Shown here in pieces: positions 4,377 to 7,556 of a DNA stretch of 64,000 nucleotides. The translations under genes and the position numbers were made by a program. Each line of letters begins with the position of its first letter. The first letter of the stretch is position 1. The notes under the pieces were generated by a model. The model was given only the letters and a program-made list of their open reading frames with translations, had not been told where the DNA came from and searched no databases. Origin of the DNA: Woeseiaceae bacterium (GTDB lineage Bacteria > Pseudomonadota > Gammaproteobacteria > Steroidobacterales > Woeseiaceae); contig JABDOQ010000082.1 of the NCBI GenBank assembly GCA_013043165.1, positions 96,847 to 160,846 on the forward strand, read 5' to 3'.

Positions 4377-5036
4377 CTAGAAGTTATAGATGAAGGCAAT
4401 GGAGACAACCGGCCAGGCTTTGAAGTCGCTCATTTCGTCCTCAAGTTCAAGGCGTTCGGCTTCGAGCGCGTCCTGAAAAACCTGCTGGCCCGCCGCGAAT
4501 CCATCGGCCTGCAAACTGACTGTCGGTTCACCCTGCCAGAGTACGCCGAAGTCGAAGTTCAGACCGACCTTGCCCAGGACTTCGAAGTCGTAGCCGACAC
4601 CAAGATAGGGCGCAGTACTGGCGAATGACGTCAAGCTTTGCAGGGAACCAACATCAGCAGGGCTGAAGGTGTTCCCGCCGATTTCGAAGTTGGCACCGGC
4701 GGTATCCTGGCTGATCATGCCAAATTCATTGTTGTTCGAAAACGCTCCGGCGGTTACGCGGAACGGGCTCAGCGGGAAACGAAAGTTTCCTGTGGCGTAA
4801 TACGTGTCCAACGCGAACGTGGCGTCATAATTGATGCCAGCCTGCGAGCCATCGTCGTCGTATTCGTAGCTGTTGGCGCCAACGCGTACGTCCAGCCAGG
4901 GCAATAGACTCCAGCGTCCTTCGACACCGAGTCCAAGCGTGCCGGCCTTCAGTCCAATACCAAAATCGGCACTGGCCGTACCGAACGCAGCCAGTGCGAG
5001 CGCGGCCAGCGCCACCTTCATAAATGCTGTTTTCAT
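4377..5036 (-). CDS. Outer-membrane beta-barrel protein, unknown function
   Basis: The 219-residue product begins with a Sec signal peptide (MKTAFMKVALAALALAAFGTASA) and ends in VSIAFIYNF. The terminal phenylalanine and alternating hydrophobic pattern are typical of outer-membrane barrels assembled by BamA. The mature part has alternating aromatic strands (DFGIGLKAGTLGLGVEGRWS, PYLGVGYDFEVLGKVGLNFD) resembling small eight-strand barrels of the OmpA/OmpW type. No specific family can be assigned. Its stop lies 13 bases from that of the convergent FAD oxidoreductase. Confidence 0.75.
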   Translation of the reverse strand: MKTAFMKVALAALALAAFGTASADFGIGLKAGTLGLGVEGRWSLLPWLDVRVGANSYEYDDDGSQAGINYDATFALDTYYATGNFRFPLSPFRVTAGAFSNNNEFGMISQDTAGANFEIGGNTFSPADVGSLQSLTSFASTAPYLGVGYDFEVLGKVGLNFDFGVLWQGEPTVSLQADGFAAGQQVFQDALEAERLELEDEMSDFKAWPVVSIAFIYNF

Positions 5037-5251
5037 CGTTGTTTCAGCCCAAATCGAATTAACGGTCCCGAGCGTATACCCGCGTCTCTGACCTGACTGT
5101 GCGACGTATCACAGCTCCGAAAATTTTGCCGGTTTATGTCAAATCTCCCCAATCTGCCGGATTTTGCGGGCGGCCGCAGCGCGTTGGCAGGGGTAGCTTG
5201 AGATGGCGCAGGACGCGCGTCAGTAAAAAGGCATTCAACAAGGAGATGGAA

Positions 5252-5431
5252 ATGCGTGAACTAACGATGAGTGAAGTTGAGTTTGTATCGGGTGGGTGCA
5301 CACCGGGCAGCAGTAATACATTCGGCGGAATTCGAGATACCTACGGTTTGGGTCAGGACATTATCAATATCTATGAAGGACTCATTGAGGCGACTTCGTA
5401 CGTCATCGAACGCGTCGCAAACGCTCTGTGA
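5252..5431 (+). CDS. Small peptide with double-glycine leader, bacteriocin/microcin-like
   Basis: A 59-residue peptide starts MRELTMSEVEFVSGG, which matches the double-glycine leaders cleaved by peptidase-containing ABC exporters (MRELxxxEvexVSGG type). Cleavage after GG would free a 44-residue core rich in glycine and serine, with one cysteine at its first position and an amphipathic C-terminal stretch (IINIYEGLIEATSYVIERVA). The start at 5252 is preferred over the ATG at 5246 and the track start at 5099 because AGGAG lies six bases upstream. A strong terminator follows at once. No exporter or modification enzyme is in view; the closest partner is the convergent CPBP protease gene. The leader is clear by eye; antimicrobial activity is inference. 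Confidence 0.75.
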   Translation: MRELTMSEVEFVSGGCTPGSSNTFGGIRDTYGLGQDIINIYEGLIEATSYVIERVANAL

Positions 5432-5436
5432 CACGT

Positions 5437-6264
5437 TCAGCGCCGCGGCGGTTGCTCGTCGCGGCGCTTTTTTGCGTCGCCTGTCAGGCGGACGACTAAA
5501 ATTGTCGCGATAAGCAGCATTGCCGTCGCCGCAATGCCAATACGCCACAGCGGCAGATCCGATATCGGTGGATTCCAGATTCCATGCAGGCAGCGCCAGT
5601 CGACCTGTACCAAGCCGTTGAAGGTGGCGTGTGAAATCAGCGACGGCCAAAGCGACTGCGAGTTCCAGTACTGGATTCCGAACACGACTCCCGCGACAAA
5701 GGTGAACAACCAGTGTGAGGGTGGATGAAAGATGGCAAAAACTGTCGCCGACACGGCGATCGCAACGACGGGCCCGCCGCGATGCAGCGAAGACTGGACA
5801 TAGGCACGATTCGTCACTTCTTCGACAATCGGTATCATGATGACCATCACCAGAAATCCGACCATCGCCACCTTTGCTGGCGGGCACTGGAACCAGAATA
5901 ACGGCCCTTCGATCGCGAACGGATCATTGTCGCGGTAAACGCCGAACGCAACTCCGGCGATCGTCATACTCCACCACAGGACTCTGATTAGCATGCCGAC
6001 AGCAATGGCACGCAGAACTGTGGAAAGTGAGAGCGTTGACGGCCGAAACTGCTCCAGGAGAAACGCCTTGTCCAGGCGCAACATCGGCAACATCAGGACC
6101 AGCAAGAGCGGAAACACCACCAGGTAGGACAGGTCAGCCGCGTGGTCTTTTTGCAGGCCTTCGCGTAGCAGCTCCATCTGCAGCCACGAGCGCGCGAACA
6201 GAGCGGCTGTGGTAGCAACAATGACGGCAATTGCGTTCTTGCCAGAGGGACGACTGACTTCCAT
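5437..6264 (-). CDS. CPBP-family intramembrane glutamic protease
   Basis: A multi-pass membrane protein of 275 residues from the CPBP (CAAX protease and bacteriocin-processing, Abi) family. The three catalytic motifs are all present: EEVTNR at 148-153, FAIFH ending at His180, and HATFN at 212-216. The basic C-terminal tail (DAKKRRDEQPPRR) is partly encoded by the terminator of the facing peptide gene. Family members prenyl-process proteins, mature or give immunity to bacteriocins, or process sorting-signal proteins. Next to a GG-leader peptide, an immunity or processing role is attractive but inferred. The gene lies 77 bases downstream of alkB on the same strand and may be co-transcribed with it. 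Confidence 0.88.
   Translation of the reverse strand: MEVSRPSGKNAIAVIVATTAALFARSWLQMELLREGLQKDHAADLSYLVVFPLLLVLMLPMLRLDKAFLLEQFRPSTLSLSTVLRAIAVGMLIRVLWWSMTIAGVAFGVYRDNDPFAIEGPLFWFQCPPAKVAMVGFLVMVIMIPIVEEVTNRAYVQSSLHRGGPVVAIAVSATVFAIFHPPSHWLFTFVAGVVFGIQYWNSQSLWPSLISHATFNGLVQVDWRCLHGIWNPPISDLPLWRIGIAATAMLLIATILVVRLTGDAKKRRDEQPPRR
5439..5473 (+). terminator. Rho-independent terminator of the GG-leader peptide gene
   Basis: A 12-bp GC-rich stem (AGCGCCGCGGCG paired with CGTCGCGGCGCT, one G-T pair, loop GTTGCT) is followed by six T residues. It begins 8 bases after the peptide stop codon and lies within the last codons of the convergent CPBP gene, so the two genes share this DNA. Confidence 0.85.
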
Positions 6265-6341: not shown

Positions 6342-7556
6342 CTAGAGACCTGGTATGTCCGTAATGGTCGGTTCAACCATCTTGTCCCGGCCCCATTTCA
6401 GAAATAGTGACGCGCGTGCGTCCGGGTCGATGTTTACTTTGTCCAGATCACCTTGCACATGCGGCAAAGCCATAAGGCGCTTGTCCATGACATAAAACCA
6501 AAGCCACGGGATGTAGGCCATTACGTACATACCAAAGTACCCGTTGGGCAGTGAGGGCAGATCCTCAAAATGCCGCAAGGACTGGTAGCGCCTGAGCGGA
6601 TGGGCATGATGATCGGAGTGCCGTTCGAGGTGAAACATCACGAGGTTGCTCAGTATGTGATTGCTGTTCCACGAGTGATGCGGCTGGCAGCGTTCGTATC
6701 GGCCGCGGACGTCCCGCTGTCTCAACAGTCCGTAGTGCTCGACGTAGTTGGCGCTGGTCAGCTGCCAGTAGGCAAATACGTTGTGGAGAAACAGAAACGG
6801 TACGACCGACCAGCCAAATAACCACAGCAATATAGCGCTGAGGGCTGCCGTCATGGCATACGACTGCAGAATAGCGTTACTGCGGTGCCATACGGATTTG
6901 CCACGAAGCGTCAGGCGTTCTTTTTCTATTTGCCACGCCCTCCGAAACGCAGAGGGTATTTCGCGCCGAGCAAACTTGTAAATACTCTCGCCCATCCGGG
7001 AACTTGCCGGATCAGCGGGTGTGGACACGTCCCTGTGATGGCCCCGATTATGCTCAATCGAAAAGTGACCGTACGCGGGGATAGCCAGTACGACTTTGGC
7101 CAGCAGCTTCTCGATCTTCGAGTTTTTGTGGCCGAGTTCATGCCCGGTGTTTATTGCGAGGCCCGATGTCAGCCCGGCAGTGATCGCGATTAGTACGAAA
7201 GCCCACCAGCTGACCGACGCAGACGTGGCGTACCAGACACATCCGACAAGCGCAATAAGATGCAGCGGCACCACGGCATATGTCAGCCAGCGATAGTACC
7301 GGTCCTGATCGAGCTGCATGACAATTTCTTCGGGTGGGTTGTTGCGGTCTTCGCCGATCGCCCAATCGAGCAACGGTGCAATAATGTAGCTCGTTGCGAA
7401 CGGCAGCAAAAACCACAGTTCGTTGCCTGTCTTGAAATGCAGCCAGATCGCCAGAAACGGCTGCAGCGGGTATACGACTGACAGCAGCCAAAGCCAGCGT
7501 TTGCGATCAACGTAATGTAACTCGCCGTCAGGTAATACTGCGGTGTAGCCTTTCAT
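6342..7556 (-). CDS. alkB: Alkane 1-monooxygenase (membrane di-iron hydroxylase)
   Basis: AlkB hydroxylates the terminal carbon of medium-chain alkanes using two iron atoms held by histidines, with electrons from rubredoxin. All signature motifs are seen: HELGHK (139-144), EHNRGHH (168-174), NYVEHYGLLR (270-279) and LERHSDHHAHP followed by RRYQSLR (310-329). About six hydrophobic helices surround them. Length (404) is normal for AlkB. No rubredoxin, rubredoxin reductase or AlkS regulator is in the window, so electron donors must be encoded elsewhere. The next gene downstream on the same strand is the CPBP protease. Confidence 0.95.
   Translation of the reverse strand: MKGYTAVLPDGELHYVDRKRWLWLLSVVYPLQPFLAIWLHFKTGNELWFLLPFATSYIIAPLLDWAIGEDRNNPPEEIVMQLDQDRYYRWLTYAVVPLHLIALVGCVWYATSASVSWWAFVLIAITAGLTSGLAINTGHELGHKNSKIEKLLAKVVLAIPAYGHFSIEHNRGHHRDVSTPADPASSRMGESIYKFARREIPSAFRRAWQIEKERLTLRGKSVWHRSNAILQSYAMTAALSAILLWLFGWSVVPFLFLHNVFAYWQLTSANYVEHYGLLRQRDVRGRYERCQPHHSWNSNHILSNLVMFHLERHSDHHAHPLRRYQSLRHFEDLPSLPNGYFGMYVMAYIPWLWFYVMDKRLMALPHVQGDLDKVNIDPDARASLFLKWGRDKMVEPTITDIPGL

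Follow-up and report, generated by a model that had tools for sequence, protein, structure and literature searches.

Introduction

The leaders of class II microcins comprise 15–18 amino acids, end with GG or GA, and carry hydrophobic residues at positions −4, −7, and −12 (PMC11494933). Biofilm formation can be another function of GG peptides that leave the cell through C39 transporters, as exemplified by EbfG/PteB of Synechococcus (PMC4997328). CPBP intramembrane proteases have been associated with small peptides in different contexts: self-immunity was proposed for SkkI, MroQ and AgrD provide a precedent for peptide processing (review PMC10482373), and the angicin bacteriocin locus includes a CPBP gene (PMC8692603). 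In the open-access papers searched, no Gram-negative system combining a GG peptide, a dedicated CPBP protein, and an unlinked exporter was found.

In marine sediments, the Woeseiaceae belong to the most abundant bacterial groups, and little is known about their interactions. Here, a 64-kb stretch of DNA from a member of this family (contig C107; in the following referred to as the window) was analyzed. It contains a short peptide gene facing a CPBP gene, with the following features:

4377–5036, minus strand: gene of an outer-membrane beta-barrel-like protein (OMP) weakly similar to CarO; left border of the cassette
5237–5251, plus strand: ribosome-binding region (AACAAGGAGATGGAA), kept as AAGGAGATTGAA in relatives
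5252–5431, plus strand: gene of the precursor peptide (59 aa; predicted GG leader, residues 1–15, and 44-aa core)
5439–5474, plus strand: intrinsic terminator of the peptide gene, whose stem also codes for the last CPBP residues on the opposite strand
5437–6264, minus strand: gene of the CPBP intramembrane protease (275 aa; Pfam PF02517)
6342–7556, minus strand: fatty acid desaturase gene (FADS); right border of the cassette

Results and Discussion

The peptide gene and its product

A preliminary description of this DNA had reported a 59-residue ORF with a ribosome-binding site. Judged by 47 aligned homologues from several genera, this ORF is a genuine conserved gene. Its product begins with MRELTMSEVEFVSGG/CTPG... 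(the slash marks the predicted cleavage point), and the ribosome-binding region lies directly upstream. ATG 5252 is the conserved start: relatives keep an AAGGAG ribosome-binding site together with an MRELT start, and their reading frame is often closed shortly 5′ of this codon. The 110-aa version starting from GTG 5099 is therefore an over-extension, in line with the earlier suspicion that the annotated start lay too far upstream. The gene is easily overlooked by annotation, and a search of Pfam and NCBIfam returned no family for the peptide. It occurs once in its own genome, where a degenerate leader pattern had one match in 3.19 Mb with at most one mismatch (the reversed control had none); with up to two mismatches, only the 59-aa peptide and two unconvincing matches were obtained.

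Homologues of the peptide are encoded in 38 of 73 genomes of the same genus and in additional genera of this family; outside the family, one genome from the same order has a homologue. Carriers in the public contig collection include several uncultured Woeseiaceae. A 39th listed hit (genome G078), which sits within a 508-codon frame, was left out of the 38. The 47 aligned homologues have in common a 15-residue leader ending with GG or GA, an invariant cysteine in the core, and a C-terminal helix that is likewise conserved; the invariant residues are M1, R2, L4, E8, G14, C16, G26, Y41, E42, S49, E53, and R54. The leader is hydrophobic at positions −12, −7, and −4, with a single exception at −7 among the 47 sequences, and thus is of the C39-exporter type, as had been claimed when a GG leader for peptidase-containing ABC exporters was first noticed. 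Every aligned peptide has exactly one core cysteine, usually three residues beyond the GG/GA site. A cysteine immediately after GG was found in the window genome only, so that the core-initial cysteine, formerly singled out as unusual, is peculiar in its position but not as a residue.

The mean column identity in the alignment is 70% for the leader, 60% for the cysteine-carrying segment, and 77% for the helix, and the AlphaFold2 model of the peptide consists of a low-confidence leader helix and a confident C-terminal helix (residues 30–58). The median dN/dS of the core is approximately 0.2, a rough value owing to saturated synonymous sites, and by this rough measure the peptide frame is under purifying selection. 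Glycine accounts for 13.6% of the core in the window peptide and 6–23% in relatives (class II microcin criterion, 12–26%), and the core is acidic, with a net charge of −3 in the window peptide.

These properties bear on the possibility that the peptide is a microcin or bacteriocin, whose core would kill or inhibit relatives while the CPBP protein confers self-immunity by cleaving or sequestering the returning peptide at the inner membrane. For the window peptide, the leader and the glycine content lie in the class II microcin range. However, typical bacteriocins are diversifying and cationic, whereas this core is acidic and conserved across genera with a low dN/dS. A core that is conserved, acidic, and mostly single-copy is less in keeping with a diversifying toxin than with a signal or structural peptide. 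A structural function is conceivable in the form of a secreted surface or biofilm peptide resembling EbfG, for which the CPBP protein would provide membrane quality control or turnover. The gene is conserved, mostly single-copy, and located in a core-genome context, and EbfG/PteB is a precedent for GG peptides leaving through C39 transporters; on the other hand, the peptide has no repeat or amyloid-like sequence, and we know of no CPBP partner in EbfG systems. This explanation is considered quite improbable.

The peptide gene is followed by a hairpin with a stem at 5439–5468 (13 pairs, loop of 4) and a T run (folding z-score −4.3), in agreement with the strong intrinsic terminator described previously. 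Since the CPBP stop codon occupies positions 5437–5439, the last CPBP codons are located inside the hairpin, also as described. The notion that the terminator is common to both genes had to be abandoned, as there is no U-tract on the CPBP strand; with a T-tract on the peptide side only, the hairpin serves the peptide gene alone as intrinsic terminator. In nearly all relatives the CPBP stop lies within approximately 30 nt of the peptide stop, and most of them have a GC-rich hairpin 3′ of the latter.

Joint presence and absence of the peptide and CPBP genes

The locus comprises, in this order, the genes of a DAO-type oxidoreductase (forward), OMP (reverse), the peptide (forward), CPBP (reverse), the desaturase (reverse), a DUF5658 protein (forward), and sucA (forward), and the order around the peptide gene is preserved in public relatives as far as their contigs extend. 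A CPBP gene is located beside the peptide gene in 37 of the 38 peptide-positive genomes of the genus; the contig of the 38th stops inside the peptide gene. No CPBP gene without the peptide was found among the 73 genomes. A separate CPBP search took in 61 of them and identified the same 32 genomes as the peptide search, and the remaining peptide-negative genomes, all taken from the same genus, were checked at the fetched locus. Both flanks lie on a single contig in 20 peptide-negative stretches (representing 19 genomes, as G022 has two copies). In these stretches, the gap between the desaturase and OMP genes measures 102–224 nt and contains no cassette remnant; partial loss of the peptide or CPBP gene was not seen in these intact empty junctions. 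In 30 of 31 measurable positives, the gap is 1264–1434 nt long with both genes inside, and in G010 it is 2974 nt. Most assemblies are drafts, many of them from metagenomes, and absence calls hinge on their completeness, whereas the empty junctions do not.

A SucA tree shows 11 changes of state for the cassette, at least 7 of them on well-supported branches. Outside the genus, 12 genomes have the peptide and CPBP genes next to each other at this locus, one of which belongs to another family; one of the 12 is a single contig of 4.06 Mb. The joint empty junctions and the repeated state changes indicate that both genes are gained or lost together, and their occurrence at this locus in other genera suggests that they were inherited vertically and repeatedly lost as a pair. 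The pairing of peptide and CPBP proposed in the preliminary description, along with its expectation of co-occurrence in relatives, thus gains support from joint presence and absence and clean junctions in the 73 genomes; neither a CPBP gene of this type lacking a neighboring peptide nor an unconserved frame or leader was seen.

The absence of CPBP-only genomes also weighs against the immunity explanation, because immunity genes without toxin genes are expected in non-producers. Taken with the strong conservation and the acidic core, it leans against an ordinary bacteriocin. Alternatively, the two genes may merely be neighbors with a shared ancestry, which have no common function and are jointly deleted at a favored site. 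The locus is constant, so that joint loss could be physical, and in a mirror-tree test the peptide and CPBP did not co-diverge more closely than the species tree accounts for (partial r 0.07; 202 of 1000 permutations as high), a result that favors neither processing nor immunity. Nevertheless, the lack of partial loss in the 20 intact empty junctions, the 7 or more state changes, and an unlinked exporter that goes with the cassette (see below) make such an explanation highly improbable.

Several other observations were made at this locus. In G077 (L184, 2410–3993), two diverged peptide genes flank the CPBP gene, one of them at the usual desaturase side, although the desaturase gene itself was not found in this stretch. 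The 1.7-kb FADS–OMP gaps of two peptide-negative genomes, G066 and G078, were rejected as diverged cassettes because they contain a membrane acyltransferase-like gene (L178, 5382–6770; L180, 5923–7224). A CRP-like palindrome (TGTGCGACGTATCACA) at window positions 5098–5113 is conserved approximately 50–83 nt upstream of the OMP gene. As genomes lacking the cassette likewise have it in front of this gene, it was dismissed as a cassette-specific regulatory site and probably controls the OMP gene.

An exporter encoded elsewhere in the genome

No C39 domain is encoded in the window. The preliminary description had noted the lack of a nearby exporter and considered one elsewhere possible, and indeed the genome encodes two C39 domains, on contigs C63 and C97 only. 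Contig C63 codes for a 709-aa C39-ABC exporter with C39, ABC membrane, and ATPase domains adjoining an HlyD-type adaptor. This exporter aligns over nearly its full length with PCAT1, with the C39 residues Cys, His, and Asp in register. The C39 protein of contig C97 was rejected as exporter, since it consists of a standalone peptidase and is encoded within a Fap-like cluster; the region (L073) also encodes DNSDNS-repeat-rich proteins and a beta-barrel protein and resembles a Fap functional amyloid cluster. An outer-membrane efflux (TolC-type) protein is also encoded on contig C97.

Within the genus, an exporter was detected in 36 of 38 peptide-positive but only 5 of 35 peptide-negative genomes (Fisher p 4.6e-13, phylogeny ignored). 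A phylogenetic test yielded 7 independent contrasts on starred branches; 5 to 7 of them were concordant, no contrast ran the other way, and the sign test had a median p of 0.016. Outside the genus, 11 of the 12 peptide-bearing genomes encode a C39 domain within a long frame of the exporter type. The two peptide-positive genomes without a detected exporter, G079 and G085, are incomplete or fragmented. Among the negatives with an exporter, the locus is assembled in G030 and G078, whereas G008 and G093 are 62–64% complete and lack it altogether. The exporter of G013 (L228) is a doubtful exception: identity with the window genome is 83–94% for its flanking genes, as compared to approximately 80% for SucA, and the assembly is 6% contaminated, so that the contig probably is a contaminant from a close relative of the window genome. 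The exporters share approximately 30–100% identity with that of contig C63, and because of this wide variation several exporter types may serve the peptide. The location of the exporter apart from the peptide gene is a further point against the microcin or bacteriocin explanation.

No leader peptides similar to the window peptide were seen near the fetched exporters. A weak peptide match in G122, which belongs to another family and likewise encodes C39 proteins, was rejected as homologue; it is a different GG-leader peptide (MRELTLDEISLVAGG..., with a glycine-rich core; L243, 3704–4087).

The CPBP protease

By its sequence, the protein encoded opposite the peptide is a member of the CPBP family (PF02517; 69.4 bits versus a cut-off of 22.4). 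It contains the motifs EEVTNR (148–153), FAIFH (176–180), and HATFN (212–216), corresponding to EExxxR, FxxxH, and HxxxN, and an alignment of 44 CPBP sequences shows no variation at residues E148, E149, R153, F176, H180, and H212. Retention of the catalytic residues suggests that the protease is active, and it also counts in favor of a function in self-immunity. The median dN/dS is 0.35, again a rough value due to saturated synonymous sites. A search against the sequences of solved structures gave no match for the protein, but its structure model (mean pLDDT 95.8) has as nearest solved fold SpdC, a CPBP protein (probability 1.00, with an E-value of only 0.0096). Two further residues, C127 and C225, are also invariant in the 44 sequences. 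In the model they are located beside short strands (122–125 and 226–229), and with the positive-inside rule this makes a periplasmic C127–C225 disulfide plausible.

A candidate secreted-peptide system

The joint inheritance and loss of the peptide with the CPBP gene and the parallel distribution of the exporter point to an undescribed secreted-peptide system. Its three parts would be the 59-aa precursor, the convergently encoded CPBP intramembrane glutamic protease as its obligate partner, and the C39-ABC exporter with its HlyD adaptor on contig C63. The exporter would cut after GG15 and secrete the 44-aa core, which would probably pass through a TolC-type channel. The CPBP protein in the inner membrane would also act on the peptide; its most likely role is that of a second processing enzyme, which would recognize the conserved amphipathic C-terminal helix. 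We infer cleavage and export of the core from the leader rule, the exporter domains, and co-occurrence; the substrate of the CPBP protein and the direction of its effect are inferred as well.

That peptide, CPBP protein, and exporter form one functional system is considered very probable, even though the peptide and CPBP genes are convergent and not co-operonic. With regard to the CPBP protein, a role in processing or maturation rather than immunity is favored, above all as no genome keeps CPBP without the peptide, and also by the MroQ–AgrD precedent and the conserved amphipathic helix as possible recognition element; we give this role an even chance. The complete three-part proposal, with CPBP as second processing enzyme, could equally well prove right or wrong. 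Self-immunity, for which SkkI-type Abi/CPBP proteins and the angicin locus are precedents, appears rather unlikely. A more specific form of the processing model would be Gram-negative signaling of the AgrD type, though with other machinery, in which the exporter trims the peptide at GG and the CPBP protease cuts in or before the C-terminal helix. The released signal would be the more variable segment with the invariant cysteine, and C127 and C225 of the CPBP protein, periplasmic according to the positive-inside rule, might engage this cysteine. We regard such signaling as improbable.

An exported-type peptide with a dedicated CPBP protein in several genera is a concrete candidate, amenable to testing, for a factor in signaling or competition of these sediment bacteria, and the cassette naturally lends itself to studying how bacterial CPBP proteases act on peptides. 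Furthermore, GG-peptide systems with an unlinked exporter, which are missed by exporter-centered searches, are detectable by joint presence and absence.

Comparison with described systems

With class II microcins of the MccV type (CvaAB/TolC) the window family shares the 15-aa GG/GA leader with hydrophobic residues at −12, −7, and −4, a glycine-containing core, and, in the window genome, a C39-ABC exporter with catalytic Cys, His, and Asp and an HlyD adaptor. In contrast to these microcins, whose exporter is linked, the C39 proteins are encoded on contigs C63 and C97 and the cassette on C107; a 275-aa CPBP protein takes the place of a small membrane immunity protein (51–216 aa), and the core is acidic and conserved across genera. 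Because the exporter is unlinked and the peptide has no known activity, it was not filed as a class II microcin.

The arrangement also resembles the SkkI/PlnI family of CPBP/Abi self-immunity proteins in that a CPBP protein with intact catalytic motifs is encoded beside a GG-leader peptide gene, but here the host is Gram-negative, the genes are convergent, CPBP-only genomes are lacking, and no other bacteriocin genes were seen. MroQ–AgrD of staphylococcal quorum sensing offers an analogy in its CPBP protease and small peptide with an amphipathic helix and an invariant cysteine, although the window peptide differs by its C39-exporter-type leader and the C-terminal position of its helix. Finally, a GG peptide of the C39-exported type is shared with EbfG/PteB of Synechococcus elongatus, in which the role of EbfG is non-antibacterial and lies in biofilm formation.
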